From Nitrospiraceae bacterium (GTDB lineage Bacteria > Nitrospirota > Thermodesulfovibrionia > Thermodesulfovibrionales > Dissulfurispiraceae), in the NCBI GenBank assembly GCA_012517735.1, contig JAAYUK010000041.1:1-55314 (forward strand): a DNA stretch of 55,314 nt, given 5' to 3'. Shown piece by piece: positions 211-48,033 of the stretch. The position numbers were made by a program, and so were the translations under genes. The notes under the pieces are model-generated. The model had not been told where the DNA came from. It saw only the letters and a list, made by a program, of their open reading frames with translations, and ran no database searches. Every line of letters starts with the position of its first letter. Positions within the stretch are counted from its first letter, which is position 1.

Positions 211-429
211 AATTGTCATTAGATTCGATCCAATAACGCTCTAAGCCTGGCTGGGCTGGCAACAGAGCGGATTTATTCGGCGAAGCGGAACATACAGGAT
301 GTATGTGCCAGGCGAATACCTCGGAGGACGGCTGGATGCCGTTCGAGAAACGGGGCCCCCGAAAATGTCGAGGACTTTTCGGGGTAGCAGTTGAGCGGCG
401 TTGCCTGTCCTGCCAGGCTAATGACAATT
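211..429 (+). mobile_element. MITE-like element, copy 1 (long form)
   Basis: The element is bounded by the 12-bp perfect inverted repeats AATTGTCATTAG (211-222) and CTAATGACAATT (418-429). Internal sequence matches four other loci in this window. It contains small palindromes: CATAC...GTATG near 291-303, and an imperfect stem around 329-352. Copies 1 and 3 also carry an extra roughly 43-bp segment, here holding the stem CCCCGAAAA/TTTTCGGGG. No transposase is encoded, and short ORFs across it are artefacts. It ends 6 bp before the stop codon of the PPC-domain gene. No clear target-site duplication is visible for this copy. Confidence 0.8.
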
Positions 430-435
430 CTCGGG

Positions 436-870
436 TTACAGTTTCAGCAGCACCATCCTCGAGACTTCGTCCAGCTCGCGTTTTGCGGTGACTCCCCTGA
501 TCTCGAAGATCACCACTTCCAACAGCATGAAGGTCTCGGATGCCTCCCGCAGGCAGCCGACCTTTACCGAGTCGAACTTGCCGTATGATCCATGGAAATG
601 GATCTTCGGATCTTCACCATGCCAGAAGATGGTGCCGAACCCGTAGGTTTCATGGCTTTCGGTCAGCTCCCGCCATTCCGGCACCGGCGGCATTTCATCG
701 GTCTTCGGACCGACCACGAAGCGCCCCCCTTTCAGCGCGCCGACCATATGGAATGCCCCGGCCCTGATGTTCTCTTTTTTTGCAAGATCGATCAGGCCCT
801 GCAAAACATTGTCGCCGTCGTCAAAACGTGCAATGATCACTCTTCCTATTTCACCAGTGGTATATTTCAT
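436..870 (-). CDS. PPC/DUF296 domain protein
   Basis: The 144-residue protein matches the PPC (plants and prokaryotes conserved, DUF296) fold. It begins with the family's typical 'RVIIARFDDGDNVLQGL' strand-helix and continues with an 'AGAFHMVGAL' segment. The paired histidines of HFHGSYGK (about residues 91-93) are conserved in prokaryotic members and thought to bind metal. There is no AT-hook, so the DNA-binding role of the plant relatives should not be assumed. The start is set by a strong AGGAGG about 7 nt upstream. It lies 27 bp downstream of waaC and is probably co-transcribed with the LPS genes. Function in bacteria is unknown. Confidence 0.85.
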   Translation of the reverse strand: MKYTTGEIGRVIIARFDDGDNVLQGLIDLAKKENIRAGAFHMVGALKGGRFVVGPKTDEMPPVPEWRELTESHETYGFGTIFWHGEDPKIHFHGSYGKFDSVKVGCLREASETFMLLEVVIFEIRGVTAKRELDEVSRMVLLKL

Positions 871-897
871 GACGACCTCCTTTTCATGTGCTGCGGC

Positions 898-1923
898 TCA
901 AATAAGTTGGTGCAGGGTTCCCATGGCGTGAAACGCTTCGAGAACCCGGTCAACACCGATGCCCTCCAGGCATTGCGGAGACGGACACGTTTTTTTGTAG
1001 CAGGGCGCACAGGGCAGATCCGGCGTCAGAACCAGGCTGCTCGATCCGTACGGCCCGGTGCGCACAGGATTGGTCGGTCCGAATATGGCAATGGTCGGAA
1101 TGCCGAGTGCAGCCGCAATGTGCATCGGACCGGAATCGTTCGTAACGACGAGCCGGGCAGCCCGGGTCAGGGAGATCAGCTCCGGCAGGGTCGTTTTCCC
1201 GGCAAGCGAACGGGCCTTCCCTTGGGAATGCCGCTCAATGAGCAGGCCGGTCTCAGCGTCCGCTCTGCTGCCGATGACCATGCTCCTGACCGGTAACGCA
1301 GCGGCAAGCGCGGCAAAACGTTCCGCCGGCCAGCGTTTTGTCGCCCAGCGGGCACCAGGGACCAGAATGGCATATACGTCCGACTCGGCCTTGATCCTGC
1401 TGACTGCGTCGGTATCCTTCAGCAACGGAAGCGGAAAAACAACGGGGGCGGTGTCGCAACCGATCGCTGAGGCAATTTTGAGATAACGGTCAACCGCGTG
1501 GATGTCCCGGCCACCTTTGACCGTGTGGGTATAAAAAAGACGGCTGCCCTCACGGGCCTCGGCGAATCCGACACGCACCGGAGCCTTGGTTGCGTTGGTA
1601 ATCAATCCGCTCCGCAGAAGCCCCTGCAGATCAAGGACCAGGTCGAACCGTTCCATGCGCAGTGCCTGGAAAAGGCTGCGGATCTCGGCTGCAGTCTGCG
1701 ACAGCGCACGCAGATTTTTCCAGCGGTCTTTGTGGATGATCCAGAGCCGGTTGATCATGGGGTGATGATCGAGGAGCGCCTCGAATCCTTTGGCGACGAC
1801 CCAGTCGATTTTTGCCTGCGGGAATGTGCGGTTGAGGGCATCGAGGACCGGAAGCGCGTGCACAATGTCGCCGAGCGAGCTCGGCTTGACCATGAGAATT
1901 CGGCGGGGTGTCTGTTTAAGCAC
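898..1923 (-). CDS. waaC: LPS heptosyltransferase I (GT9 family)
   Basis: The 341-residue GT-B glycosyltransferase of family 9 should add the first L,D-heptose to Kdo on lipid A at the inner face of the cytoplasmic membrane. The N-terminus ILMVKPSSLGDIVHALPVLD is the typical WaaC signature. The nucleotide-sugar domain shows VPGARWATKRWP and the conserved VTNDSGPMHIAAALGIPTIAIFGPT near residues 260-285. The reading frame starts with GTG at 1921-1923, which overlaps the stop codon of the upstream waaF-gmhB gene by 8 bp, so translation is probably coupled. Assignment to WaaC rather than WaaF rests on the N-terminus and on the WaaF-like neighbour. Confidence 0.85.
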   Translation of the reverse strand: MLKQTPRRILMVKPSSLGDIVHALPVLDALNRTFPQAKIDWVVAKGFEALLDHHPMINRLWIIHKDRWKNLRALSQTAAEIRSLFQALRMERFDLVLDLQGLLRSGLITNATKAPVRVGFAEAREGSRLFYTHTVKGGRDIHAVDRYLKIASAIGCDTAPVVFPLPLLKDTDAVSRIKAESDVYAILVPGARWATKRWPAERFAALAAALPVRSMVIGSRADAETGLLIERHSQGKARSLAGKTTLPELISLTRAARLVVTNDSGPMHIAAALGIPTIAIFGPTNPVRTGPYGSSSLVLTPDLPCAPCYKKTCPSPQCLEGIGVDRVLEAFHAMGTLHQLI

Positions 1924-3442
1924 CGGCGGGTTTCCGGGTCAGGATGGCGCTTACCGCTTCAGACAGGGAGCCGACGGTGATATCCGCATGCGCCGACGTT
2001 TCCTGCTGGCCGGTCCGGACATGAATCCCTCTTGCTCCGACCATGCGGGCGAGCAGCATGTCGGCATCCTTGTCGCCGACCACCACGGACTGCTTCAGGT
2101 CGATCCGGTGTTTCAGCCGCGCGTCCAGAAGCATGCCAGGCTCCGGCTTGCGGCAGGCGCAGCATTCCGATGGGGAGTGCGGGCAGTAGAAGAAGTCGTC
2201 AAACCCATATTGGTCGATGAAGAGCTGGTTCACGTCCCGGGTAAACGTCTCATCGACCAGTCCCCTGCCGATGCCGGACTGATTCGAAACGCCAATCAGC
2301 AGATAGCCCTGCTCCTTCAGTGCCTTCAGGGAGTCGATATCAGGGAAGAGCTCGAAGTCTTTCCAGTCATTCAGATAGTTGGCGTCACGGCAGAGGGTGC
2401 CATCACGGTCGAAAAAGACGGCTTTCCGCTTCGGCATTATCTGGGCAATCTCGTCACAGACATCATCTGCAGATATGGTATCCATGCATTTCATGTGGCC
2501 TTTTTTGCATCTCCGCTCAAAGCAGGGAGCGCAATCAAGCCGTCTTCGCACAACGCGATGCCCTTCTCCGACCGGGCCGGTCAGTTCGGGAGCGGTTGAC
2601 CCAAAGATGGCGACAAGCGGTGTGCCGACCGCATAGGCAAGATGCATCGGGCCGGAATCGTTGGTGAGAAAAACCTCGCATTCGGCAATGAGCGCGATGA
2701 GGTCCTGCAGCGAGGTGTGCCCGGCGAGACAGAGTTTGTTGGCAGGCACATCTTCGTCGATTTCGAGGGCAATGTCTTCCTCGTTTTTGCCGCCGAATAT
2801 GACGACACTGCCTCCGGTGGTGGTAATGAACCAGTTGGCAACCTCCGCGAAGCGGTCCGGAAACCAGCGCTTTGCCGATCCATACGTGGCGCCCGGATTG
2901 ATGCCGAGGATCGGCCTTTCCAGAGACGCGAGCTTTTTTCGTGCGCGTTCGCGCTCATGGATCGGTACCGACAGGAATGGCCGCTCATACTCTGCATGAA
3001 GCCCGGCCTGTCTGAGAAGGTTGAGATAGTAGTCCACATGATGCATGGAACGGTCTTCATTGGTGAAGGGAATCGGATGGGTAAGCAGCATGCCGCGGCC
3101 GTCGCGGTCATACCCGATGCGCTTCGGGATCCCGGCAAGCAGCGATACGGCCGCTGCTCCAAACGCATTTTGGAGCAGGATCGCCATTGTATAGTGTTGC
3201 CTTCGCAGGCGCAGGCCAAGGCGCAGTCTGCCCTGTATGCCGGTATCCTGCTCGCCGAAGGTCAGTACCCGGCTGATACACGGGACATGCTCGAAAACCG
3301 GCGCAACGCCGGGCTTGACCAGCAGGTCGATATGCGCTTCCGGGAATGCCTTGCGGATTGCCCGTATGGCGGGCAGGGTCATGACGGCATCACCGATCCA
3401 GTTGACGCCGCGTATCAGGATCGCTTCGGGCGTTTCACGCAT
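1916..3442 (-). CDS. waaF-gmhB: Fusion: LPS heptosyltransferase II + heptose-1,7-bisphosphate 7-phosphatase
   Basis: At 508 residues this is about 160 longer than a normal WaaF. Residues 1 to about 345 are a GT9 heptosyltransferase: NWIGDAVMTLPAIRAIRKAF at the N-terminus, NPGATYGSAKRWFPDRFA, and TNDSGPMHLAYAVGTPLVAIFG. After PKRKAVFF comes a complete HAD-type GmhB phosphatase: nucleophile motif DRDGT, VSNQSGIGRG, the zinc-binding CPHSP...CCACRKPEPGML loop and VVGDKDADM. One chain therefore carries a step of ADP-heptose synthesis and a step of heptose transfer. No stop or frameshift is visible at the junction. It leads an operon with waaC. Confidence 0.9.
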   Translation of the reverse strand: MRETPEAILIRGVNWIGDAVMTLPAIRAIRKAFPEAHIDLLVKPGVAPVFEHVPCISRVLTFGEQDTGIQGRLRLGLRLRRQHYTMAILLQNAFGAAAVSLLAGIPKRIGYDRDGRGMLLTHPIPFTNEDRSMHHVDYYLNLLRQAGLHAEYERPFLSVPIHERERARKKLASLERPILGINPGATYGSAKRWFPDRFAEVANWFITTTGGSVVIFGGKNEEDIALEIDEDVPANKLCLAGHTSLQDLIALIAECEVFLTNDSGPMHLAYAVGTPLVAIFGSTAPELTGPVGEGHRVVRRRLDCAPCFERRCKKGHMKCMDTISADDVCDEIAQIMPKRKAVFFDRDGTLCRDANYLNDWKDFELFPDIDSLKALKEQGYLLIGVSNQSGIGRGLVDETFTRDVNQLFIDQYGFDDFFYCPHSPSECCACRKPEPGMLLDARLKHRIDLKQSVVVGDKDADMLLARMVGARGIHVRTGQQETSAHADITVGSLSEAVSAILTRKPAGA

Positions 3443-3562
3443 GCGGGTAGTTTACCATGGAAGCTTCTGCCGGAAGGCGCATGAATAGCAATGGGAAATG
3501 GCGTCATGACGGCCAGCAGGTGTGTGTATTCAGTCCGACTTCGAACCATGTTTCGGGGTCTG

Positions 3563-4042
3563 TTATGCCCCGCAGCATTTTTTGTATTTTTTGCCGCTGC
3601 CGCAGGGGCAGGGATCGTTGCGTCCGACTTTTGGTTCTTCGCGCCGGAACGGTTTCGGTGCTACCGTCTTGCCGTCAACGAGATACCAGGTTCCGTTTGC
3701 TTTTCTGAAGCGCGAGACCTCATGGTGCCGGACCTCGTTGCCCTGCTGGGTAAATGTGGCGATGAACTCGACCGTGCCCTCCGTGTCTCCGGCTTCGGTA
3801 TGTACAATCTCAAGGCCGCGCCATTCAGAGCCGGAAGCCCATCCTTTGGTACCCTCCCGATCGAAGTCCCCCCGTGCCTCAGGCAGGAGTGAGTCATGGA
3901 GGAAGTCGATATTGGCGGTAGCATATGCGCTGTATCGTGCTCGCATGAGCTGCTCAGGCGAATCGGCCGGCTTGGTTTTTTGTATGATCGGTTCGCAGCA
4001 TTCGGCAAACGCTGCACCGGAGCCACAGGGACAGATAGTCAT
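3563..4042 (-). CDS. ychJ: YchJ-family SEC-C motif protein
   Basis: The 159-residue protein has a zinc-binding SEC-C motif at each end: [13 protein letters not shown] near residue 4 and [15 protein letters not shown] at the C-terminus. An NTF2-like middle lies between them ([20 protein letters not shown], then a WRGLEIV strand). This is the UPF0225/YchJ architecture, whose biochemical role is not established. An AAGGAG about 7 nt before ATG supports the start. It lies 120 bp upstream of the LPS operon on the same strand and may or may not share its transcript. Confidence 0.9.
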
Positions 4043-4099
4043 AGGACAACTCCTTATCGAGAAAATATCTGAACGAAATTATACCTTTTTACCGACAAT

Positions 4100-4281
4100 T
4101 CAGACCAATCCGCGGTCGATCAGCTCGGTTTTCAGATACGCGTAACAGATCGGAGCCGCGGCAACGCCGGGCAGGCCGAAGAGCGTCTCCATGATCAGCA
4201 TGGTGATCAGCCCAAAGAAGAGACGTGCCTGATCCGCGAGGCTGAGAACTGGGGCAGGCACGTCTGCAGCGATTGTCAGGG
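4100..4281 (-). pseudogene. 3' remnant of an AI-2E family (PerM-like) transporter
   Basis: Reading the minus strand into the stop TGA at 4100-4102 gives about 60 codons: a hydrophobic helix (LFFGLITMLIMETLFGLPG) followed by VAAAPICYAYLKTELIDRGLV. That 'LPG...APxxYAYLKxEL' ending is typical of AI-2E exporter C-termini. No suitable start codon exists in frame, and an in-frame stop lies just upstream inside the end of the next gene. I therefore read it as the leftover tail of a deleted transporter gene. The family call rests on the short tail only. Confidence 0.5.
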
Positions 4282-4470
4282 GAGGTGGGGCTTTCCCCGG
4301 AGCGCTTCAAGGATACGCTTTTCGCATCGGGAATCCTCGAGTCCTCCGAGGGTCAGAACGCCGAAACGGCGGCACTTGGGGTTGTCGCAATAATAGATCA
4401 CCAGCTCGCTGCAGGTGATCTGCTCCAGATGGTCGAAACAGTCTACACAGAGAAAATGATCAACTTTCAT
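4276..4470 (-). CDS. Small Cys-rich protein, possible zinc ribbon
   Basis: The protein has 64 residues and a perfect AGGAGG about 7 nt before ATG. It carries CVDC near residue 8, single cysteines near 20 and 28, CDNPKC, and SRCEKR, a pattern that could bind one zinc ion. No family is recognised. It is divergent from the DUF6485 gene, with back-to-back promoters between them. Its 3' end touches the AI-2E transporter remnant, so it may be a neighbour brought close by the deletion. Confidence 0.7.
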   Translation of the reverse strand: MKVDHFLCVDCFDHLEQITCSELVIYYCDNPKCRRFGVLTLGGLEDSRCEKRILEALRGKPHLP

Positions 4471-4512
4471 TGCGCCCTCCTGATGCGGCGATGACGACGG
4501 CTTCCTGACTCA

Positions 4513-4540
4513 AGTATATCACGCTCTGCACACGACTCAA
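4513..4540 (-). promoter_or_regulatory. sigma70-type promoter for the small Cys-rich gene
   Basis: On the minus strand TTGAGT (4535-4540) and TATACT (4513-4518) are separated by 16 bp, about 40 bp upstream of the ATG at 4470. A second TATACT faces the other way at 4553, so this is a divergent promoter region. Confidence 0.55.
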
Positions 4541-4552
4541 AGCTTTCTGCGG

Positions 4553-4558
4553 TATACT
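4553..4558 (+). promoter_or_regulatory. -10 element upstream of the DUF6485 gene
   Basis: TATACT lies 38 bp before the ATG at 4597, leaving a roughly 30-nt leader that contains the strong GGGGAGG ribosome site. No convincing -35 hexamer is seen at the expected distance. Confidence 0.4.
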
Positions 4559-4596
4559 TTCTGAAATGACCGAGCACATAAAAGGGGAGGATTTTC

Positions 4597-4791
4597 ATGG
4601 AATGCATCATGGAAAAGAACAGATCGCTCTGCACCTGCACATATGAACCGTGCGGCAGGAAGCACAAATGCTGCGAGTGCCTGCACTATCACCGGAAGAA
4701 CGGGGAATTGCCGGGTTGTTATTTTTCCGCGGAGTATGAGCGGACCTATGACCGTTCGATCGCGAACTTTCTCAGGATGCACAGGAAATAA
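4597..4791 (+). CDS. DUF6485 family small Cys-rich protein
   Basis: The 64-residue protein has the pattern CTCTYEPCGRK, then CCECLHYH, then GELPGCYF, and a Tyr/Arg-rich tail (AEYERTYDRS). I recognise this as the DUF6485 family found in anaerobic bacteria and archaea. Seven cysteines and paired histidines suggest a metal site; no activity is known. A strong GGGGAGG lies 6 nt before ATG. It stands alone between a divergent gene and the converging ankyrin gene. Confidence 0.85.
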   Translation: MECIMEKNRSLCTCTYEPCGRKHKCCECLHYHRKNGELPGCYFSAEYERTYDRSIANFLRMHRK

Positions 4792-4900
4792 GCGTTTTCC
4801 CCTGAAGTCCGGACGGACGCAGTTGCGTCCGCCAGCGCAGATGCCGCCCTGATAATCGGGGCGCTGAATGGCTGCAATTTCACGGTTGAAGAGAGCTTTG

Positions 4901-5725
4901 TTACCGGGCTGCCTTGCGGAGCATTGCAGCGATTTCGTTTTTCTTGAGGCGCTCAGCCAGCTGGATGGGCGTGGTTCCGTTGCTGCTCTGATGGTGAACG
5001 TCCGACCCGTTTTCCAGGAGAATCGCGACACACTCCGGCCTGCCCTCCAGAATTGCGTACATCAATGGGGTGAAGCCGATGGCTGACTGCTGTTTGACGT
5101 CCGCTTTTGCTGCGAGGAGCAGTTTCAACATCTCGCTATCACCCTGCACGGCTGCCATCATGAGCGGGGACTGGCCATGCTTCTTTTCTGCGGTATTGAC
5201 CTGTGCTCCCTTGTCGATGAGGAGCTTGGCAACAGCAAAATGGCGATTGTTGGGATAGTTCCGGATTGAACTGCCGGAGACCGCGAGGAAAAGCGGAGTA
5301 ATGCCGGCACTGTTTGTCGCATTTATCTGTGCTCCCCCGGCGAGCAACAGCTGAACCGCATCATAGTTTCCCCGGGCGGCTGCCATCATGAGCGCGGTAT
5401 CGCCGTTTTTAGTGGCGGCCTGGAGCGATGCTCCCTTGCCGAGCAGCAGTGCAACGACCTGCACGTTTCCTTTCGACGATGCGAGCATCAGCGGCGTCAG
5501 ACCGTCGGCATCCGGTATGTCGACCGGCATGCCTGCTTTCAGGAAGAGATCGACGATATCAGTCTCGCCCGCCACCACGGCACTGAGAAAGCTCTCCGGC
5601 GTATAGGGAATGCCGCGCTCCTGGAGCAGCTTTTTCGGACCTTCTGTGTCACTACAGGCGATTGCAAGCAGACAGAGGCTGAGTGCAACGACAATTCCCA
5701 GCCGCTGCAGTACATTCATCATCAT
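4901..5725 (-). CDS. Ankyrin-repeat lipoprotein
   Basis: The protein has about 274 residues from the chosen start. The N-terminal hydrophobic signal ends in the lipobox LLAIAC, so the mature protein should be lipid-anchored. The rest is about six ankyrin repeats, with units such as DGLTPLMLASSKGNVQVVALLL and NGDTALMMAAARGNYDAVQL. The repeat at about 175-205 carries a short insert (SSIRNYPNNRH). The start is set at the ATG run 5717-5725 because GGAGAG precedes it; the longer frame to 5797 would run into the upstream gene. It lies 19 bp downstream of the TPR lipoprotein, and the two are likely co-expressed. Confidence 0.8.
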   Translation of the reverse strand: MMMNVLQRLGIVVALSLCLLAIACSDTEGPKKLLQERGIPYTPESFLSAVVAGETDIVDLFLKAGMPVDIPDADGLTPLMLASSKGNVQVVALLLGKGASLQAATKNGDTALMMAAARGNYDAVQLLLAGGAQINATNSAGITPLFLAVSGSSIRNYPNNRHFAVAKLLIDKGAQVNTAEKKHGQSPLMMAAVQGDSEMLKLLLAAKADVKQQSAIGFTPLMYAILEGRPECVAILLENGSDVHHQSSNGTTPIQLAERLKKNEIAAMLRKAAR

Positions 5726-5744
5726 GGACATCTCTCCGATCGTT

Positions 5745-6116
5745 CTATTTTTCGGTATCCAGCTTGATTCCCTGCGATGCCGCCCCGAGGATTGCATCCA
5801 TGATCAGATCCTGGATCATCCCTTTCGTCCTGTCCGGCGAGAGGCGGTACGCTGTGCGCAGCGGCGCGAGCGATTTCGCCCATTGGCGGGTGTTCAGATA
5901 GGAACGGCCCAGATAGAGATACGCATCGACAAATCCTGAATCCTGCTCGATCGCTTTCTGCAGGTGCGGAATCGCCGCATCATAGTTCCCCTGATTGAAG
6001 AACGCCATCCCCTTGTCGAAGTCGCCCTGGGCTGTGCTCAGTCCGCACGCCGACAAGCAAAGGAGCATGCCGATCACAATGCATGATGCGATCACGTTCT
6101 GCGCGATACCGTTCAT
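5745..6116 (-). CDS. TPR-repeat lipoprotein
   Basis: The protein has 123 residues from ATG 6114-6116, chosen for the AGGGAGG about 7 nt upstream (the frame is open further, to 6194). A signal peptide with lipobox LCLSAC is followed by two or three TPR units (FDKGMAFFNQGNYDAAIPHL, then VDAYLYLGRSYLNTRQWAKS). It probably acts as a periplasmic or membrane-bound scaffold together with the downstream ankyrin lipoprotein. No specific partner is visible. Confidence 0.8.
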   Translation of the reverse strand: MNGIAQNVIASCIVIGMLLCLSACGLSTAQGDFDKGMAFFNQGNYDAAIPHLQKAIEQDSGFVDAYLYLGRSYLNTRQWAKSLAPLRTAYRLSPDRTKGMIQDLIMDAILGAASQGIKLDTEK

Positions 6117-6213
6117 TCCGGCCTCCCTGTCAAACAACTGGATATTTCGGGTATTGTATGAAGCAATCAGCAGCTTTTGCAAGCGAGGCAACACTCAGCA
6201 GGGATTCGGCATT

Positions 6214-6241
6214 TTGTTTTTCCGGCGGAGCCTGTTAGAAT
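6214..6241 (+). promoter_or_regulatory. Possible sigma70 promoter before the sigma54 regulator
   Basis: TTGTTT (6214-6219) and TAGAAT (6236-6241) are separated by 16 bp, about 100 bp upstream of the response-regulator start. No -24/-12 element was found here, so the regulator itself appears to be made from a housekeeping promoter. Confidence 0.35.
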
Positions 6242-6342
6242 TGGTTGGGACAGAGGGGGATGCATGTCGATGCGATGGTCACTGTCAGGGGAGACGGAAC
6301 AGGCTGTCATGAAGCCGAGATTGTCGGGAGCTGTAGCCAGAT

Positions 6343-7689: not shown

Positions 7690-7764
7690 CCCTGCGATTG
7701 GCAGATGGTAATGCCTTGACTATGCGTCCGGAGGATTTCGCATAGAGGATGAAGCGGTGGTGCG

Positions 7765-8445: not shown

Positions 8446-8519
8446 CCCGGATATCCTTCAGCAATTCCGGCACGTGCATGGCGTTGTCGGAACGGACAGC
8501 TCCCAATCGTTTGTTCAGG

Positions 8520-8549
8520 TTGACTTTTCCCCGCTCTATCTGGTATTAA
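8520..8549 (+). promoter_or_regulatory. Possible sigma70 promoter
   Basis: TTGACT (8520-8525) and TATTAA (8544-8549) are separated by 18 bp. Transcription would begin within a few bases of the in-frame ATG at 8558, which would give a nearly leaderless message. Confidence 0.4.
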
Positions 8550-8557
8550 TCCTGCTA

Positions 8558-9433: not shown

Positions 9434-9451
9434 TACAGCAGGGAGGGGCAT

Positions 9452-9682: not shown

Positions 9683-9706
9683 AGCACGCGCTTGTTTTGG
9701 CACCTG

Positions 9707-9739
9707 AACGGAGAACGCGTCAGCGCTCTCCGTTTTTTT
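9707..9739 (+). terminator. Rho-independent terminator
   Basis: AACGGAGA (9707-9714) and TCTCCGTT (9727-9734) form a perfect 8-bp stem around a 12-nt loop, and a T-run continues to 9739. It lies 25 bp after the small membrane protein. Confidence 0.85.
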
Positions 9740-23862: not shown

Positions 23863-23914
23863 TAATGGTTTTGCTTTCCTGACAGCCGCGGGCTTCGCAC
23901 CGCAAATATGTCCT

Positions 23915-23998
23915 CTCTGTGCCGCCTTGCTGAATAAATCCGCTCTGTTGCCAGCCCAGCTGAGCTCTGAACGCTTTCGATCGAATCCAATGACAATT
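23915..23998 (-). mobile_element. MITE-like element, copy 2 (decayed)
   Basis: In minus orientation one end is well kept: CCAATGACAATT at 23987-23998, then the conserved inner run with GAATAAATCCGCTCTGTTGC. The other end has diverged beyond recognition near the preceding gene. It is the most eroded of the five copies and has no visible flanking duplication. Confidence 0.65.
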
Positions 23999-24095
23999 TC
24001 GGGATACTGTCTCGCAGCAAGATTTTACAAGACAAGGATCGGTATTTCCCCTAAAATGGAATCAAGATTAAAGCACAGGCAGCAGAGGAGGCGCA

Positions 24096-29366: not shown

Positions 29367-29558
29367 CATTTGTGGAGACAGGAGATAATAATGATATTTG
29401 TCGATCCTCAGGTTATGTCCCTTAGGAACGACACCAAACCGGGCCGACAATTCAGATCAAGTCATATGTCTCTCAGATAGTCAGCGGTCTCTTTATTTCA
29501 GCATACGGCAAGAAATAATTCGGGCTTCCTTACCAGACAAAACTCTGCTTTATCCCAA
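29367..29558. other. Gene-poor stretch with one doubtful short ORF
   Basis: Here an ATG at 29391 follows a good CAGGAG site and opens a 29-codon frame (MIFVDPQVMSLRND...) ending at 29480. It could be the truncated start of a lost gene. I see nothing else before the MITE copy begins. Confidence 0.3.
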
Positions 29559-29775
29559 AATGTCATTGGATTCGATCACAATCGCTCCGAGCATGGCAGG
29601 ACTGGCAACAGAGCGGATTTATTCGGCGAAGCGGCACATATAGGACGTATGTGCCAGGCGAATACCTCGGAGGACGGCTGGACGCCGTCCGAGAAGCGGG
29701 GCCCCCGGAAGTGTCGATGACTTTTCGGGGTGGCAGTTGAGCGGCGTTGCCTGTCCTGCCGGGCTAATGACAATT
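29559..29775 (+). mobile_element. MITE-like element, copy 3 (long form)
   Basis: The left end AATGTCATTGG has lost one T compared with the consensus; the right end CTAATGACAATT (29764-29775) is perfect. Like copy 1 it keeps the extra roughly 43-bp segment with a CCCCGGAA/TTTTCGGGG stem, where one change is a tolerated G.T pair. Flanks TTTATCC (29549-29555) and TTTATTCC (29781-29788) look like an imperfect target duplication. It lies upstream of the rex promoter. Confidence 0.8.
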
Positions 29776-29912
29776 CTGGGTTTATTCCGTTGGGGTTGCC
29801 CAAGCAGGCAATATAAGAATTTTTAATAGCGAAAAAAAGCGCGATTGGAGCCGATTCGCGGGCAGATAAAAAAGATTTATGCTTCCAATCGAAATAAATC
29901 ATGCTGATTTTA

Positions 29913-38625: not shown

Positions 38626-38677
38626 AAATGCATGAGGTCCATATCTTTGTATTTTTCACTTTGCACGTTTAACCGAG

Positions 38678-38854
38678 AATTGTCATTAGCCTGGCAGGAC
38701 AGGCAACGCCGCTCATTCTCGGACGGCATCCAGCCGTCCTCCGAGGTATTCGCCTTGCACATACGTCCTGTATGTGCCGCTTCGCCGAATAAATCCGCTC
38801 TGATGCCAGTCCAGCCAGGCTTAGAGCGTTATTGGGTCGAATCCAATGACAATT
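38678..38854 (-). mobile_element. MITE-like element, copy 4 (short form) between hydF and hydE
   Basis: Inverted repeats are AATTGTCATTAG (38678-38689) and CCAATGACAATT (38843-38854), and the interior matches copy 5 in reverse. The 7-bp direct repeat GTTTAAC is present on both sides (38667-38673 and 38859-38865), a clear target-site duplication. The hydE ATG is only 16 bp beyond the core end. The short form lacks the 43-bp stem segment found in copies 1 and 3. Confidence 0.85.
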
Positions 38855-38870
38855 TTAGGTTTAACTTCTC

Positions 38871-39938
38871 ATGATGAATCGTGAAGAGGTTTTGCGATGG
38901 CTGCATGAGACGGACCCGACGCGTCTTGCCGATTTGTATGCTCGTGCCGATGCCGTACGCAGGGAGTGTGTCGGCGATGAGATTCATCTCCGCGGACTGG
39001 TTGAAATCTCGAATTACTGCCTTCAGAACTGCGCCTATTGCGGTCTGCGCCGGGAGAATATCGCTGTTGAACGGTATCGCATGAGTGATCTTGAAATCAT
39101 GGATTGCGTGCAGGAAGCGGTGCGACGCGGATATGGAACGATTGTCCTGCAGTCAGGGGAAGATTACGGGTTGGAGACCGGATGGATTGCAGACCTGGTC
39201 CGGAAGATCAAGGCCGGGACATCGCTTGCGGTGACCCTGAGTCTCGGTGAGCGGTTCCCCGAGGAGCTCGCCGCGTGGCGGGAGGCGGGAGCGGATCGCT
39301 ATCTCCTGAAGTTTGAGACTTCCGACGATGAATTGTACGAACGGATTCATCCTGCGTTGCCCAACAGGGCATACTCAAGAAAGGGATTGCTCCGCATTCT
39401 CAAGGATCTCGGGTATGAAGTCGGCAGCGGCGTGATGGTCGGCCTGCCGGGGCAGAGTTATCAAGCCTTGGCGAACGATCTGTTTCTGTTCCGGGAAATG
39501 GGCCTGGACATGATCGGCGCGGGGCCGTTCCTCCCCCATCCGCAGACTCCGCTCGGGCAGGACGCAACCTATGCGACGCTGCCGCCGGAGGAGCAGGTGC
39601 CGGCCACCGAGGAGATGGCATATAAAGTGGTCGCCTTGACCCGAATACTCTGTCCGAACGCGAATATTCCGAGCACCACGTCGCTGGCGTCGCTGAACCG
39701 GGAAGCAGGCCGGAGGCTGGCGCTGCAGCGGGGAGCGAACGTTGTGATGCCGAATCTGACGCCGGGGACCTATCGCCTCTGTTACGAGATTTATCCGGAA
39801 AAGCTCTGTTTTCATGAAGATCCTGATTTTGAACATGCGCAGCTCATGCAGTTGTTTGCTGACCTCGGTCGTCCTGTCGGCAAGGGACCAGGGGGGAGGC
39901 CGGTGGATATCGCCAAGGGCAAGGAGAGTTCTTTATGA
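38871..39938 (+). CDS. hydE: [FeFe]-hydrogenase maturase HydE (radical SAM)
   Basis: The 355-residue radical-SAM enzyme carries the SAM-cluster motif CLQNCAYC in NYCLQNCAYCGLRREN near residues 49-56. It continues with the HydE/BioB-like barrel (GTIVLQSGEDYGLET, RYLLKFETSDDELYERIHP, GAGPFLPHPQTPLGQD). HydE acts with HydG and HydF to build the di-iron subcluster. Start choice between the two adjacent ATGs is open, because no ribosome site remains between the MITE and the ATG. Its stop overlaps the next start (ATGA), giving coupled translation downstream. Confidence 0.94.
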   Translation: MMNREEVLRWLHETDPTRLADLYARADAVRRECVGDEIHLRGLVEISNYCLQNCAYCGLRRENIAVERYRMSDLEIMDCVQEAVRRGYGTIVLQSGEDYGLETGWIADLVRKIKAGTSLAVTLSLGERFPEELAAWREAGADRYLLKFETSDDELYERIHPALPNRAYSRKGLLRILKDLGYEVGSGVMVGLPGQSYQALANDLFLFREMGLDMIGAGPFLPHPQTPLGQDATYATLPPEEQVPATEEMAYKVVALTRILCPNANIPSTTSLASLNREAGRRLALQRGANVVMPNLTPGTYRLCYEIYPEKLCFHEDPDFEHAQLMQLFADLGRPVGKGPGGRPVDIAKGKESSL

Positions 39939-42009: not shown

Positions 42010-43186
42010 TCTCCAGGATAAGAACGTCATCGAAGTCGATCACTTTCAGACCGCCAAGCGGCAACAGTTTGTCTCCGGCGACATTTTCCTGTCGCAGCGA
42101 CTGAAGGACGAAGACCGCGTGATTTCGGTGCTTGCGGACGGACTCGGCAGCGGCGTCAAGGCGAGCGTTCTTGCCACGCTCACCGCAACCATGGCGCTCA
42201 AGTATACCGCCAGTTCCAAGGATATCCGGTCATCCGCCGAGATCATCATGAATACCCTTCCGGTCTGCAGCGTGCGCAAGATCAGCTACTCCACCTTCAC
42301 GGTCGTCGATATCGACCTTTCGGGGCGTGCGCGCATTATCGAGCACGGGAACCCGCCGTTCATTTTCTGGCGCGACGGGCGTGAGATCATGGTTGCCAAA
42401 CAGGATCTCGCGCTGAAGAAATGGAGCGATCGGGTCATTCAGTATTCGGAATTTGACGTGCAGCTGGGTGACCGGCTCATTTTCTTTTCCGATGGAATAT
42501 CGCAGGCCGGCATGGGCAACGTCGATACCCCGCTGGGTTGGGGAGAGGGCGTCAAGCCTTTTATTGAGCGGATCATTGCCGCCGACGGGAACATTTCAGC
42601 GCATATGCTCGCGCGGCGGATTGTACGGCGTGCGGTCCAGATGGACGGACGGGGGGCTCTGGACGACATAACCTGCAGTGTCATTTATTATCGTCAGCCC
42701 CGGCAGCTGTTGCTGGTGACCGGTCCGCCCTTTGCCCGGGAACGTGACGCCGAGCTGGCGAGATTCATCGACACCTTTCCCGGAAAGCGTGTTATCAGCG
42801 GCGGGACGACCGCAAATATCATTGCGCGCCACCTTGACCGTGAGATCGATACGGATATGGACTTCCGCGCTCCGGGGGTTCCTCCCGGCGCAACCATGGA
42901 AGGCATGGATCTGATTACAGAGGGCACGCTGACGCTGAATCGGGTGGCAGGCCTGCTGGAGTCCGGCGCGCTGCCGGAAGACGAACCGAAGGATCCGGCA
43001 TCAGCGCTCTTCTCGATGCTGCTCGACAGCGATATCGTCTACTGCATTGTTGGCACACGCATCAATGAAGCGCATCAGGATCCGAACATTCCGGTGGAGC
43101 TGGACCTGCGGAGAAACATCATCCGCAGGATTATCGATCAGCTCGAAAAGCAGCACTGCAAGGAGACGTTCGTCAAGTTTATCTGA
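42002..43186 (+). CDS. SpoIIE/PP2C-type Ser/Thr phosphatase with unknown C-terminal domain
   Basis: The 394-residue protein overlaps the sensory hydrogenase gene by 8 bp. Residues 1 to about 225 form a PP2C-like domain with metal-binding motif VLADGLGSGVKAS, then IEHGNPPFIFW, RLIFFSDGISQAG and a terminal ALDDITCSVIYY, all acidic ligands being present. Residues 226-394 (LLLVTGPPFARERDAEL, GKRVISGGTTANIIARHL, SDIVYCIVGTRINEAHQD) form a separate domain that I do not recognise. By position it should be switched by the H2 sensor and dephosphorylate a protein, perhaps an anti-sigma antagonist, but no target is encoded in the window. Confidence 0.88.
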   Translation: MINLQDKNVIEVDHFQTAKRQQFVSGDIFLSQRLKDEDRVISVLADGLGSGVKASVLATLTATMALKYTASSKDIRSSAEIIMNTLPVCSVRKISYSTFTVVDIDLSGRARIIEHGNPPFIFWRDGREIMVAKQDLALKKWSDRVIQYSEFDVQLGDRLIFFSDGISQAGMGNVDTPLGWGEGVKPFIERIIAADGNISAHMLARRIVRRAVQMDGRGALDDITCSVIYYRQPRQLLLVTGPPFARERDAELARFIDTFPGKRVISGGTTANIIARHLDREIDTDMDFRAPGVPPGATMEGMDLITEGTLTLNRVAGLLESGALPEDEPKDPASALFSMLLDSDIVYCIVGTRINEAHQDPNIPVELDLRRNIIRRIIDQLEKQHCKETFVKFI

Positions 43187-43207
43187 TGCGATCCTTGCAG
43201 TGATCGG

Positions 43208-44620
43208 TCAGGTTGCGCTGCCGGCTTTCTTCAGTGCGCCAGCGGCTACCTTTGGGTTGACCATGATGCCCGGGCCTGCAATGCAGCCCCCGGCGCACGC
43301 CATCCCTTCAATCAGATCGAACTTCTCCTGACGCGCTGTCTGAAATGTTTCCTTGCCTTCCGCAAGCCCGTCCATTCTGAGCGTCCGCAGATCACGCGTG
43401 CAGAGCTCCTTGACCGCAGCTGTGACACCCCCGGCTGCAGCAAAGCCCCATCCGAGCCTGCTGCCTTCGACGGTTGCATCTTCCTGAGCGGCAGGCTCAA
43501 TGCCTTTCGCGATGAAGAGCGCTCCGAGTTCTTCAAACGTGAGCACGTAGTCGACAAAAGGACCTTTCGATGCCTCGAGTTTTTTTGCGATGCATGGACC
43601 GATGAACGCGATTTTTCCAGTACCGGTTTTCAGGTGCTTTGCAAGGGCAATCATGGGAGACGGAGCCGGCGAAATCCTGTCGGTAAAATCAGGCTGGTTT
43701 TTCCCGATGTAGTCGACAAACGCCGGGCAGCACGAGGTGGTTACCGTGCCGGCGGCATGTTCCAGAAAATGCGCTTCCTCTTCGGCGACCTCATCTGCGC
43801 CGGCGGCTACCGCTACCGCATCGGAGAAACCGGCTTTCTTCAGGGCGTTCTTGATCTGTCCCAGCGTAACCTTCGGCCCGAACTGGGCGACAATCGCGGG
43901 CGCAAATATGGCGATGATCTTTTCCCCCCGCCGGATGCCGGCGAGCGTCCTGAGCAGGTGAGAAGGCGACTCAGTCGCCCCGAACGGGCAGGCCACATAG
44001 CAAGCGCCGCAGCTGACGCAGCGGGAGTAGTCAATGTCCGCAGCGAAGCTTGCGTCTTTTGCAATGGCCTGCAGGGCACAGGAGCGTTCGCAGGGCCGCT
44101 CGAGCTTCACAATGGCGTAGAAACTACATGCCTTTGCGCAGAGTCCGCAACCGATACACTGGTCGATATTGATGACCGCGCGGTCATTTTGTATCTCGAC
44201 CGCCTTTTTCGGGCAGGCGTTATAACAGGAGTGGGCCACGCAGTTCCGGCAGAGGTCGGTTGCATAATATCGTCCGGACGGGCAGGAGTCGCATGCCTCC
44301 TTGATCACCTGCACAAACCGGTCGCGCGAGACGAGGTCGCTCTTCATGCCGAGAATGTCGTCGATGAGCGACGGCAATTCATACAGCTCCAGTTCACGGG
44401 AACGTTCGTAATCCATGCCCAGATACATCTTCGTTCGCTGTTTCATGACCTCCCGCTCATGATAGACACTGCTCCGGTAGGTTCCGTGCGGTCCGGGAAG
44501 CAGCATTTTGGGAATGCCGGCAAGGTGTTCCTGCAGTGTTCCCTTTTCGTACATTTGCGCCAGTGTCATCATGAGCTGGCGCCGGATTTTCATGATTTCA
44601 CTGAAGACGAAATTTCTCAT
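43208..44620 (-). CDS. [FeFe]-hydrogenase, group-B-like
   Basis: The 470-residue protein has Fe-S motifs in the first half (CDSCPSGRYYATDLCRNCVAHSC, CIGCGLCAKAC, CVSCGACYVACP). The H-cluster domain has L1 TSCCPAFVDYI, L2 GPCIAKKLEAS and L3 GMACAGGCIAGPG. The relay Cys and all four ligands are present, so catalysis is possible. The L1 ending CPAF rather than CPGW and the length match what is called group B, whose role is poorly known. It ends 21 bp from the converging phosphatase gene. Its partner, the small [2Fe-2S] protein, is encoded directly upstream with a 4-bp overlap. Confidence 0.92.
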   Translation of the reverse strand: MRNFVFSEIMKIRRQLMMTLAQMYEKGTLQEHLAGIPKMLLPGPHGTYRSSVYHEREVMKQRTKMYLGMDYERSRELELYELPSLIDDILGMKSDLVSRDRFVQVIKEACDSCPSGRYYATDLCRNCVAHSCYNACPKKAVEIQNDRAVINIDQCIGCGLCAKACSFYAIVKLERPCERSCALQAIAKDASFAADIDYSRCVSCGACYVACPFGATESPSHLLRTLAGIRRGEKIIAIFAPAIVAQFGPKVTLGQIKNALKKAGFSDAVAVAAGADEVAEEEAHFLEHAAGTVTTSCCPAFVDYIGKNQPDFTDRISPAPSPMIALAKHLKTGTGKIAFIGPCIAKKLEASKGPFVDYVLTFEELGALFIAKGIEPAAQEDATVEGSRLGWGFAAAGGVTAAVKELCTRDLRTLRMDGLAEGKETFQTARQEKFDLIEGMACAGGCIAGPGIMVNPKVAAGALKKAGSAT

Positions 44621-44865
44621 GACCGCTCGCTTTCCGCAGTTTTCAGAATGAGCGCCTTCATCCGGGAAGGGTTCATATCCTGATGATATTTCCCGTTGAT
44701 ACTGATAATCGGCGGCCTCATCGTCCCCTGACAGGATTCGAAACAGACGGAATATCCAAGGTTGATTTTCCGGGCGATTTCTGGGGGGAGATCCTTTAAC
44801 GCCTCGACGAGTTCAGTAGCTCCGAGCAGGTGACACGTTGTGCCGACACATACCTTGATTTCCAT
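44617..44865 (-). CDS. Small thioredoxin-like [2Fe-2S] protein
   Basis: The 82-residue protein has CVGTTCHLLGA and VCFESCQGTM as cluster ligands, the short NuoE-like fold. AAGGAGG lies 8 nt before ATG. It overlaps the group-B-like hydrogenase start by 4 bp and is probably its electron donor or acceptor. It is a second, independent copy of the kind of small ferredoxin encoded next to hydE. Confidence 0.9.
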   Translation of the reverse strand: MEIKVCVGTTCHLLGATELVEALKDLPPEIARKINLGYSVCFESCQGTMRPPIISINGKYHQDMNPSRMKALILKTAESERS

Positions 44866-45074
44866 GTACCATCCTCCTTGTCTTCATATTGTAGACTGTC
44901 GGGAGAATGTTTTTGCAAGCGAAATTTCAGCGTCATGAATATAATTTATGCCTGATATTCAATGAGATAAGGGTTGTGTGTGGATCCTGCCCCGCCGATT
45001 GCCGTGGTACCGGGCTCCCTGGGTGATGAACGGAGCGGCACGTATCTGCGGAGAGTTTCAGCAGGGGAGGATTT

Positions 45075-45083
45075 TGCTATACT
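45075..45083 (+). promoter_or_regulatory. Extended -10 promoter, probably leaderless start
   Basis: TG-C-TATACT (45075-45083) ends 6 bp before ATG 45090. Transcription from the usual distance starts at or next to the ATG itself, and no ribosome site is present between them. Confidence 0.5.
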
Positions 45084-45089
45084 TGAACC

Positions 45090-46247
45090 ATGATGATGCC
45101 TTCCCTATCAGAAGAAAAGCCGGCGGCTGTCATCATGGTTGTTGATGATGACAATGCCGTGCGCGATGTCGTCTCGCTGCTTCTGCAGGGGAAGGCCTAT
45201 CAAACAGTTGCCTGCCAAAGCGCTTTTGAGGCAATTGATGCGCTGAAAGCTGTTGAAGTCGATGTCGTCATTTCCGATATCAAGATGCCGGGAATGACCG
45301 GCATTGATCTCTTGGACCGCATCCGGTCCGACCGGCCCGATCTTCCGGTCATACTGATGACGGGATACGCCGATCTTGACTCCGCTGTCAGCGCGGTGAA
45401 AAAAGGAGCGTTCGATTTCATTATCAAGCCGTATAAAGCCGACTACCTGCTGCATGCCGTAGAGAAGGCGATCAGGTTCCGGCAGTTGATTCAGCTGGAA
45501 CAGGGATATCGAAAGACGCTGGAAGAGTTCAATGCCGAGATCGAGGCACTCATTGCGGAGCGCACCATGAATCTTATGGCGCTTACCATGGCGGACAAGG
45601 TCAGAAACCCGGCATTCGTCATCTCCTGCCAGACAAAGCGCCTGCTTGCCGCGTCCGATATGCCGGAGAAGTTCCGTTCCGCCCTTGCAGAGATGGGGGA
45701 GGAGGCAGCACACCTCGAGCAGATCGTGGAAGGGTTCCAGTCGGTGTTGAAGCGGCGGGAGTCGTTCTATGCATATGAAGATATCGGAGCTGTTCTGGCC
45801 GAGGCGATCGCTCTGGCCGAGAAGGATGCTGCATTGAAGCGGGTGACGTTTTCCGTGACCGCTCAGGCGTCGCCGTTGCGGCTGAACATGCAAAAGAACC
45901 TGTTGCGCATTGCCTTTCTGAATCTTCTGAGAAATGCGATCGAAGCATCGGGCATTGGTGGCGTGGTTTCAGTCGAAACGCGATCCGACAAGGATTTTGT
46001 CCTTGTCGGTATCAACGACAATGGTTGCGGGATTCCGGCCGATATGCGGGAGCGGATATTCGATCCGTTTTTCAGCACCAAGGCTCACGGATTCGGCATG
46101 GGGCTTCCCCTGGTCAAGCAGATTGTTACTGAGCACATGGGTGAGATTCAGGTGCAGAGCAGCGAGGGCGGCGGCACGCGCTTCACCCTCCGCTTTCCGC
46201 TCCGCTGGAAGCAGCCTCAGCAGGAAGCGCCGTCGTGCGGGGTCTGA
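45090..46247 (+). CDS. Receiver-HATPase protein lacking the phospho-accepting His
   Basis: The 385-residue protein has an N-terminal receiver domain (VVDDDNAVRD, phospho-acceptor D63 in ISDIKMPGMTG), a coiled coil near 130-160 and a histidine-kinase-like part. The dimerisation box reads MADKVRNPAFVIS (D169 K170) where kinases have the His-Glu of the H box. The ATP-binding part is whole: NLLRNAIEA, DNGCGIP, FDPFFSTK and GFGMGLPLV. It may act as a phosphatase, an allosteric ATP-dependent regulator, or a partner to another kinase. The stop overlaps the next gene (TGATG). Confidence 0.88.
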   Translation: MMMPSLSEEKPAAVIMVVDDDNAVRDVVSLLLQGKAYQTVACQSAFEAIDALKAVEVDVVISDIKMPGMTGIDLLDRIRSDRPDLPVILMTGYADLDSAVSAVKKGAFDFIIKPYKADYLLHAVEKAIRFRQLIQLEQGYRKTLEEFNAEIEALIAERTMNLMALTMADKVRNPAFVISCQTKRLLAASDMPEKFRSALAEMGEEAAHLEQIVEGFQSVLKRRESFYAYEDIGAVLAEAIALAEKDAALKRVTFSVTAQASPLRLNMQKNLLRIAFLNLLRNAIEASGIGGVVSVETRSDKDFVLVGINDNGCGIPADMRERIFDPFFSTKAHGFGMGLPLVKQIVTEHMGEIQVQSSEGGGTRFTLRFPLRWKQPQQEAPSCGV

Positions 46248-46867
46248 TGCAGATCGTTGACCTTACTCATCCCTTTGACTCCAGCATCCCCGTGTATCCC
46301 GGCGATCCGTCACCGCAGTTCCGCGTCCTCGCAGAAATCGGGACCGCGGGGTATCGGCTGGGCGAGATTACGACGGTTCTGCATGCCGGAACGCATATCG
46401 ATGCCCCCGGACACATGCTGGGTAGCGGCGCTGCAGTCGCCGATATTCCGGTTGAGCGGTTTGTCGGGCGCGGGGTGTTGATTGATGTTCGCCGGAAGGC
46501 TCGTATTGACCACGATGTTCTGTCCGGGGTGGAGATGCGTCCGGGCGATGTGGTGCTGTTCATGTCAGGCCGTTCCGGGCAGTACCGGAAGCCTGAATAT
46601 TTTCATGACGGGCCGGTAGTGACGGAAGCGTGTGCCCGGGCGCTGGTTGCAGCCGGCGTCAGCATGCTCGGCATCGATTTCGCGAGTCCGGACCGGCCGC
46701 CGTTTCCGGTGCACCGAATTCTGCTTGAAGCGGGAGTTCCCATTGTGGAGAACCTTGCCAGCCTGGAAAGGCTGTCGCATCATCCGAACTTCGAAATTAT
46801 CGCATTGCCGGTCAGGCTGGCTGCGGAGGCAGCACCTGCCCGGGTCATCGCCCGAATCATTCCATAA
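46247..46867 (+). CDS. Cyclase-family metal hydrolase (kynurenine formamidase-like)
   Basis: The 206-residue protein starts at ATG 46247, which overlaps the previous stop; a GTG at 46235 is the alternative. The metal motif HAGTHIDAPGH near residue 47 (His, His, Asp) is diagnostic of the cyclase family, which includes kynurenine formamidase. The remaining fold marks are GIDFASPDRPPFPVHRILLE and a C-terminal SHHPNFEIIALPVR. The substrate is unknown; no tryptophan-degradation gene is nearby. Confidence 0.88.
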   Translation: MQIVDLTHPFDSSIPVYPGDPSPQFRVLAEIGTAGYRLGEITTVLHAGTHIDAPGHMLGSGAAVADIPVERFVGRGVLIDVRRKARIDHDVLSGVEMRPGDVVLFMSGRSGQYRKPEYFHDGPVVTEACARALVAAGVSMLGIDFASPDRPPFPVHRILLEAGVPIVENLASLERLSHHPNFEIIALPVRLAAEAAPARVIARIIP

Positions 46868-46941
46868 CACCCAATGACATTTTTTCCAAAACAGCACTGA
46901 TCTTTTGGCAAAGCGAATCGTCCGCATGCATTTTTTGCGTA

Positions 46942-46970
46942 TTGACTCTCCCTTTTTCCGGCGTTAGACT
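46942..46970 (+). promoter_or_regulatory. sigma70 promoter of the 6S RNA
   Basis: TTGACT (46942-46947), a 17-bp spacer and TAGACT (46965-46970) form the best-matching housekeeping promoter in the window. It lies directly before the predicted 6S RNA start near 46977. Confidence 0.7.
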
Positions 46971-46976
46971 TGTATC

Positions 46977-47150
46977 AGGAGCAAGGACAGCAATGCCCTT
47001 TCTTCGGTTAGCCATAGGAACAGCAGGGCAATCTGGTGCTGGAGTCAGATGTGGTGAGCATGCCCTTTTCTTGAGAGGGAAGCCTGAAGCGTCTGCCGGG
47101 CGCCAATCATTGACAAAAAGCACTATGGCAAGCCTGAAAGGGCATTTTTT
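46977..47150 (+). ncRNA. ssrS: Probable 6S RNA
   Basis: The transcript of about 174 nt would start after a strong sigma70 promoter and end at a T-run. The ends pair: ATGCCCTTTC (from 46996) with GAAAGGGCAT (ending 47145), then GCCATAG (near 47020) with CTATGGC (near 47124). The middle contains GGTGAGCATGCCC...GAAGCCT, closely matching the E. coli 6S central segment GGUGAGCAUGCUC...GAAGCC, with an apical CCCT/AGGG hairpin. 6S RNA binds sigma70-RNA polymerase in stationary phase. No protein-coding frame here is credible. Confidence 0.75.
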
Positions 47151-47177
47151 ATGAACGTCCGAACTGCCCGCCAATCG

Positions 47178-47186
47178 TGGTACAAT
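47178..47186 (+). promoter_or_regulatory. Extended -10 element for engB
   Basis: TG-G-TACAAT (47178-47186) lies 38 bp before the engB ATG and beyond the 6S RNA terminator, so engB seems to have its own promoter. Confidence 0.45.
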
Positions 47187-47224
47187 CCCTCATAACTCGC
47201 GCATGCTGCAGAACAGGACGGGGA

Positions 47225-47836
47225 ATGAAGATCATCTCGGCAAAGTGTGCAATCAGCGCCGTCGGGCCAAAACAGTATCCGAAGACGGGATATCCCGAAA
47301 TCGTGATGGCGGGACGATCCAATGTCGGCAAGTCGTCGCTGATCAATTCGTTGTGTGCCCGCCGAGCCCTTGCACGAACCAGTGCCCAACCGGGGAAAAC
47401 GCAGACCATCAATTTTTTTGAGGTCAATCATCAGCTCTATCTGGTCGATCTTCCGGGGTACGGGTATGCGGCGACATCAAAGGCACAACAAAAGGCGTGG
47501 AGCGAGTTTATTTTGCATTATCTCCAGAACGGAGACAAGCTCGCCCTCATCCTGCACCTAATCGATCTCCGTCATGAGCCGATGCAGAACGACAAGGAGG
47601 CTTCCCTCTGGCTTACCCGGAGGGATATCCCCTACATCATCGTCGGAACCAAGGCTGACAAAGTCAGTCGCGGCAGGCGTCAGGCGCATATTGCCGCCAT
47701 CCGGAAAGGACTCAATCTTCCGTCGGAGGTTCCTGCTCTTGTGTATTCCAGCGAGACCGGCGAAGGCCGGGACGAGCTGTGGCGGCAGATCAGAAGCGTT
47801 CTTGCCGGGAAGCGCGAGCCCGACAAGGGAATGTGA
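47225..47836 (+). CDS. engB: Ribosome biogenesis GTPase EngB (YsxC/YihA)
   Basis: The 203-residue protein starts at ATG 47225 (GGACGGGGA upstream). The GTPase motifs are GRSNVGKSSLIN, TSAQPGKTQTINF, LVDLPGYGYA and GTKADK. This is the normal EngB length and order; the family is needed for large ribosomal subunit assembly. It follows the 6S RNA gene, and a MITE copy begins 22 bp after its stop. Confidence 0.94.
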   Translation: MKIISAKCAISAVGPKQYPKTGYPEIVMAGRSNVGKSSLINSLCARRALARTSAQPGKTQTINFFEVNHQLYLVDLPGYGYAATSKAQQKAWSEFILHYLQNGDKLALILHLIDLRHEPMQNDKEASLWLTRRDIPYIIVGTKADKVSRGRRQAHIAAIRKGLNLPSEVPALVYSSETGEGRDELWRQIRSVLAGKREPDKGM

Positions 47837-47857
47837 CGTCCGCAGTTTTTATGCCAA

Positions 47858-48033
47858 AATTGTCATTAGATTCGACCCAAATCGCTCAGAGCCGGGCTGG
47901 GCTGGCAACAGAGCGGATTTATTCGGCGAAACGGTACATACAGGAGGTATGTGCGAGGCGAATACCTCGGAGGACGGCTGGACGCCGTCCGAGAATGAGC
48001 GGCATTGCCTGCCCTGCCGGGCTAATGACAATT
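47858..48033 (+). mobile_element. MITE-like element, copy 5 (short form)
   Basis: The perfect 12-bp inverted repeats AATTGTCATTAG (47858-47869) and CTAATGACAATT (48022-48033) bound the core. The 8-bp direct repeat TTTTATGC flanks it at 47847-47854 and 48038-48045. If the duplication marks the true edges, the element spans 47855-48037. The interior has the palindromes GGACGGC/GCCGTCC and CATAC/GTATG. It is the best-preserved copy for defining the ends. Confidence 0.87.

Follow-up and report, generated by a model that had tools for sequence, protein, structure and literature searches.

A miniature mobile repeat of a Nitrospiraceae bacterium carries a conserved three-way-junction module with predicted CsrA-binding loops

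The window analysed here, a 55,314-nucleotide stretch of a Nitrospiraceae genome (GenBank assembly GCA_012517735.1, contig JAAYUK010000041.1, positions 1 to 55,314), contains five copies of a short non-coding repeat, numbered 1 to 5 from left to right, which a preliminary description had interpreted as a miniature inverted-repeat transposable element (MITE). The element is present at all five places reported, on the plus strand in copies 1, 3 and 5 and on the minus strand in copies 2 and 4. With copy 5 as query, four copies are recovered, at 208-429 (two pieces), 29557-29775 (two pieces), 38678-38856 (minus strand) and 47855-48033; copy 2 is a decayed remnant at approximately 23886-24002, with a single recognisable end at 23987-23998. 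Copy 5 (47853-48038) belongs to a short class and is flanked by an exact TTTAT target duplication (47848-47852 and 48039-48043). Its core (47895-48019; covariance model E = 7.1e-14) comprises a stem, P1, an arm, P2, that ends in hairpin P2b, and a second hairpin, P3, with GGA in the loops of P2b (47943-47945) and P3 (47980-47982). Copy 4 (38673-38859), also of the short class, lies between hydF-like and hydE-like genes with exact TTTAA duplications at 38668-38672 and 38860-38864; the covariance model matches it at 38692-38816, and its loop GGAs, read on the minus strand, are at 38766-38768 (P2b) and 38729-38731 (P3). Copies 1 and 3 form a long class. Copy 3 (29554-29780; model match 29595-29716; P2b GGA 29643-29645, P3 GGA 29680-29682) has lost one base from its left end, and once this is allowed for, the TTTAT duplication read from the sequence at 29549-29553 and 29781-29785 is exact. 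Copy 1 (206-434, with ends at 206-222 and 418-434; model match 269-349; P2b GGA 297-299, P3 GGA 334-336) has the flanks TTGAA and GTTAC, which do not form an exact duplication. The covariance model thus matches four of the five copies, copy 2 being the one it misses; a further weak match at 42928-43006 (E = 0.027), inside a gene, is taken as chance.

The repeat is not confined to the window. The host genome is assembled as 2.71 Mb in 268 contigs, the window being contig 38, and a search of it with copy 5, as had been proposed, gave 54 matches. Sites resembling the end sequence AATTGTCATTRG with at most one mismatch number 146, whereas the reversed pattern, used as a control, has 3; both counts far exceed what chance would give. 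The genomic stretches retrieved cover 123 of these 146 sites and yielded 62 end pairs, reduced to 57 elements with paired inverted ends after removal of over-long or nested pairs; both flanks are available for 56. The inverted ends noted in the preliminary description are present, although they extend over 17 bp (CCNRRAATTGTCATTRG) and not over the 12-mer quoted there. The duplication of 7-8 bp was not borne out: exact duplications of 5 bp, with the target consensus WTNAW, flank 21 of the 56 elements, compared with a mean of 3.0 and a maximum of 10 in 2000 shuffles, and the best of the other registers and lengths tested, a 7-mer that contains the 5-bp duplication, reached 5 of 59. This count used a fixed register, in which copy 3 was scored as a miss. 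The direct repeats reported beside copies 3, 4 and 5 stand, as 5-bp units. The GTTTAAC flank of copy 4 had suggested an integron attC site, but the 5-bp register accounts for it.

Measured from AATTGTCATTRG to AATTGTCATTRG, the elements fall into size classes of 40-61 bp (n = 20), 176-177 bp (n = 16) and 217-219 bp (n = 18), with three others; one of them, a 247-bp pair in contig C107, is probably a chance pairing, and three 60-bp elements, which lie at the ends of contigs C70, C179 and C239 and have the left flank in common, may represent a single locus. All 57 are at most 247 bp long and lack a transposase gene. The 20 elements of 40-61 bp lack the core, and since exact duplications are found at six of them, the centre of the element is a passenger that movement does not need. 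The 61-bp forms seem, from their sequence, to have arisen when the full element lost the part between two of its GCCTG repeats. No transposase bounded by such ends was found among the retrieved pairs and the unpaired ends inspected in the 268-contig assembly; the reading frames adjoining unpaired ends in contigs C133 and C22 were judged by eye not to be transposases. A search limited to the IS1380-type transposase family (PF13701) gave no match in the host genome. In the genome of a congener, 38 bases separate the aligned parts of hydF and hydE, against 278 in the window, and copy 4 is absent. As the surrounding intergenic DNA also differs there, this gap is not a clean empty site. Bacterial MITEs are short, transposase-less elements with inverted ends and target duplications that reach many copies and give rise to deletion forms, and the window element resembles them in each of these respects. 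Its mobility as a MITE is thus well supported, as had been suggested, by its ends, duplications, occurrence in both orientations and deletion forms down to 40 bp. The part of that interpretation that did not hold concerns the interior, which is not filler.

When 100 genomes, including that of the host, were searched with copy 5, what matched outside the genus was mostly one inner piece, GAATACCTCGGAGGACGGCTGGACGCCGTCCGAGAA, which occurs in 22 of the 100 genomes with the host counted. Around the hairpin formed by this piece lie a long outer stem and an arm bearing a hairpin of its own, so that the whole constitutes a three-way junction. In an alignment of 36 relatives, 25 of the 44 base pairs have changed on both sides, pairing is kept in 94.8% of cells, and covarying cells number 175, against 49.1 in shuffled and at most 39 in slid controls. 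P1 is long and stable, with a median of 21 pairs. The core fold is well supported. The distal arms of P1 differ between copies, which had raised the idea that cores insert into the loops of pre-existing palindromes; this idea was given up, since the arms prove to be variants of a common consensus with paired changes. No Rfam family matched the window at gathering thresholds, and among nine loci searched at E values up to 1, none of the eight matches lay over a core. In these Rfam searches an origin of the core as a TnpB/IscB guide RNA, which had also been considered, gained no support.

The core is far more widespread than the MITE that carries it in the window. Within the order Thermodesulfovibrionales its covariance model matches 66 of the 120 genomes searched, including that of the host, with at most 29 candidates scored per genome; when more candidates were scored in eight of the 66, 95, 87, 57, 36, 35, 33, 25 and 24 copies were obtained. 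A pattern scan of 84,980 species returned at least 98 stretches with a core, the matches listed including records of Nitrospirae/Nitrospirota, Nitrospinota, Desulfobulbaceae, Desulfurivibrio and Desulfobacterales, as well as metagenome-assembled genomes (MAGs) titled Halorhodospira, Spirochaetes and Planctomycetota. Binning errors are possible for the MAG matches, while Desulfurivibrio sp. AMeS2, which is not titled a MAG, has many core copies. The core on single contigs of the MAGs titled Planctomycetota (L222), Spirochaetes (L189) and Halorhodospira (L152) may reflect transfer or mis-binning. The core pattern had no match in viral contigs, so carriage by phages was set aside; one end pattern gave 13 single matches there, judged by estimate to be about what chance provides.

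A second type of MITE, with different ends (GTAACTATYCAGC, putatively IS66-like) and duplications of 8 bp instead of 5, carries the same core in CG2_30_60_27 (loci L128, L194, L198 and L218) and OS_PC_MetaG.mb.142 (L143, L164, L182 and L202). Among 12 such elements, of which L147 and L180 have a common flank and may be one locus, eight have duplications that agree at 7-8 of the 8 positions, and in six of these eight the agreement is exact. Given the small number of elements, the shuffle controls are weak (maxima of 3 and 4 against 4 and 4 observed), although exact 8-mer duplications would not be expected by chance. Unrelated MITEs thus carry one module. An ordinary MITE family with a meaningless interior would account for the ends, duplications and deletion forms of the window element, but its interior is homologous to a covarying structure found outside the family and within other MITE types, which leaves such a reading hardly credible. 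A structured passenger that covaries and crosses phyla is what separates the window element from other bacterial MITEs.

Among relatives, gene neighbourhoods that match between different species also hold the core, in five cases with both flanking genes in common. One such neighbourhood (L145 at 7286 and L169 at 1518) holds two P2 subtypes, suggesting replacement or conversion between copies, and in another (L193 2959-2994 and L203 2927-2962) the core is inverted, as if its arms had recombined. The preliminary description had set fixed places at gene ends as the mark of a structural repeat of the repetitive extragenic palindromic (REP) or bacterial interspersed mosaic element (BIME) type in place of a mobile one. 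Such places were found in part, for the core module in relatives, whereas the element as a whole shows the target duplications given above; both descriptions are therefore true, for different parts of the element. REP, BIME and enterobacterial repetitive intergenic consensus (ERIC) sequences are dispersed intergenic palindromes conserved as structures, and the core resembles them in this. It differs in its three-way junction with covarying stems, its presence in several phyla and the lack of any link found to Y1 transposases. Mobilisation of the core by a REP-associated tyrosine (Y1/RAYT) transposase that recognises its hairpins could be imagined, as the host genome has two Y1 genes and the succession of GGAG and a hairpin is reminiscent of REP sequences. 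However, no core was found in any of the 32 Y1 loci scanned (40 Y1 places were found), the core-rich genomes G022 and G094 have no Y1 match, and Y1 genes are present in core-less genomes, so that this mode of movement is very improbable. A RAYT-like Y1 protein of 286 residues is encoded in the host genome at L124 (1000-1860), a locus with no core.

The hairpin loops and a bulge of the core keep GGA. The P2b loop ANGGA, the P3 loop GGA and a P3 bulge CGGAG are invariant in all 36 aligned cores, and every one of these has at least two GGA sites in hairpin loops. Identity of the GGA columns is also high (0.98-1.00) across 48 copies of the host genome, which says little, as the average over all columns is itself 0.93. 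CsrA binds GGA in short hairpin loops, with the selected (SELEX, systematic evolution of ligands by exponential enrichment) consensus RUACARGGAUGU (PMC7652899), RsmE sites are ANGGAN hexaloops, and a CsrA dimer is able to bridge two sites (PMC7652899, PMC4383904). The host genome encodes CsrA. In a first search of 32 genomes, CsrA was encoded by 10 of the 16 that are rich in cores, those lacking it being G063, G081, G098, G105, G096 and G010; in the first five of these, the core loops are mostly without GGA although the stems are intact. A prediction of CsrA status, fixed beforehand, was then applied to 34 further genomes: CsrA was found in 17 of 18 relatives and in 7 of 8 named genomes expected to be positive, and G080 lacks it, as predicted. 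Because the pattern by which the named genomes had been found requires GGA in P3, only their P2b loops and CsrA status are informative. Pooling all searches, CsrA is encoded by 40 of the 44 genomes whose loops have GGA and by none of the six without conserved GGA loops (Fisher p = 1.3e-5, kinship not corrected for). Among genomes of the window's own family (f1), 17 of the 19 that bear cores encode it, against 1 of the 9 core-less ones searched.

The same division is seen core by core. After removal of duplicates and of cores without a parsable P3 hairpin, GGA occupies the P3 loop in 58 of 66 cores (including those of G010 and G011) compared with 7 of 59 in the six GGA-less genomes, and the P2 loop in 53 of 66 compared with 3 of 59. 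For the genomes G067, G085 and G094, which were searched alongside the CsrA-less genomes with the same model, the corresponding figures are 23 of 30 for P3 and 22 of 30 for P2, one of these 30 cores having come from the copy 5 search of 100 genomes. CsrA binding is, by a little more than an even chance, the best available explanation of the loops.

Several observations weigh against a CsrA-binding role. CsrA is also encoded by 4 of the 16 core-less genomes of the first search. G010, which is 96% complete, retains GGA loops with no CsrA match, as do G011, UBA9963 and CSSed10_361, whose completeness is lower or not stated. The P2b loops lack GGA in G038, G076 and 4 of the 8 cores of G094, and many of the 66 cores had been found by queries that contain GGA. 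In an rpoB tree of 29 genomes, from which G081 was left out as it had no rpoB match, the genomes lacking both GGA loops and CsrA represent two changes (bootstrap 2-3), and the well-supported branches force only one. The GGA-less genomes hold as many or more core copies, up to 95, which means that the repeat does not depend on CsrA for its maintenance. On the GGA strand G-U pairs outnumber A-C pairings (64 vs 27, cells not independent), which favours that strand as the one that folds, but the excess lies in P1 only (47 vs 9; 17 vs 18 in P2), and copy 5 folds almost equally well on either strand (z = -4.8, against -4.5 for the opposite strand). Finally, of the copies that lie between co-directional genes, 36 have the GGA strand antisense and 14 have it sense (p = 0.0026), a count that took 77 of 110 core instances, with P1 of at least 12 pairs; a first count over all 110 gave 42 and 18.

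Such an antisense bias is more easily reconciled with a stand-alone RNA, with insertion biased by replication or with a role at the DNA level than with a simple element of the mRNA. It tells against cores acting in cis as terminators or mRNA-stability hairpins at gene ends, independently of CsrA, an idea to which their intergenic positions close to genes and the length and stability of P1 would be suited. Gene-context analysis of the cores found no consistent T-run beside P1, for which a terminator reading was rejected, and the conservation of the loops would be left unexplained. We consider a cis-acting hairpin improbable.

The more serious competitor treats the core as a structural palindromic repeat without a CsrA role, either REP/BIME-like or a single-stranded DNA hairpin acting in replication or recombination, and explains the association of GGA with CsrA as an effect of lineage. 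Stems kept at high copy number where CsrA is lacking, only about two joint losses of GGA and CsrA, cores that recur in matching neighbourhoods, in places with another subtype or inverted, and the antisense bias all agree with it. Yet it is the loop sequence that tracks CsrA and not the stems, the prediction made beforehand largely held, and the loops resemble the published CsrA site (PMC7652899). A purely structural role is therefore a real but less probable explanation, to which we would give roughly a third of our confidence.

On balance, we favour, by a modest margin over doubt, the reading that the window element is a MITE carrying a predicted CsrA-binding RNA module. The vehicle is the transposase-less element with its 17-bp inverted ends and 5-bp WTNAW duplication, whose movement requires only the ends and their neighbourhood. 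The passenger is a module that is also found on its own, dispersed between genes as a repeat in Thermodesulfovibrionales and in other phyla, and that offers GGA in both hairpin loops (P2b and P3) and in the P3 bulge. When the core is transcribed, its two GGA hairpins could be bound by dimeric CsrA, and tens of copies might titrate CsrA or place the transcripts that contain them under its control; lineages without CsrA have retained the stems and lost the GGA loops. The broader proposition, that mobile dispersed RNA modules with putative paired CsrA hairpins have spread across phyla, travel as the cargo of unrelated MITEs, provide each host with tens of scattered CsrA sites as a selfish repeat tied to a global regulator, and decay in their loops where CsrA is lost, is plausible, at somewhat under an even chance. 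RNAs of the CsrB/RsmY type likewise each present two or more GGA motifs in short hairpin loops (PMC7652899, PMC4383904), but they derive from one or few loci, in contrast to the putative CsrA-binding core, which occurs in tens of dispersed copies.

If the CsrA-binding reading is true, a transposable repeat could rewire or buffer a global post-transcriptional regulator through tens of scattered sites, and lineages with and without CsrA would provide a natural experiment in which the same stems occur with or without GGA loops. For Nitrospirota, Nitrospinota and further groups that have been little studied, the cores would also be candidates for Csr-system RNAs, of a kind that searches for single-locus CsrB-like genes would miss. 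The family was not found reported in the open-access literature, although closed journals or other wording may hold a report; even if CsrA plays no part, a covarying repeat family that occurs in 66 of 120 genomes of one order, lacks an Rfam match and is common to unrelated MITEs is worth naming.

Two minor features of the window copies may be added. Within 38668-38870, copy 4 ends only a few bases short of the hydE-like gene, which starts at 38871, and an effect of this copy on the leader of that gene is possible. The long class (copies 1 and 3) corresponds to the short class (copies 4 and 5) plus approximately 42 nucleotides, at about 350-391 on the plus strand in copy 1 and about 29694-29737 in copy 3, which fold into an additional hairpin located between P3 and the 3' arm; the loop region of this extra hairpin contains GAGGA in copy 1.

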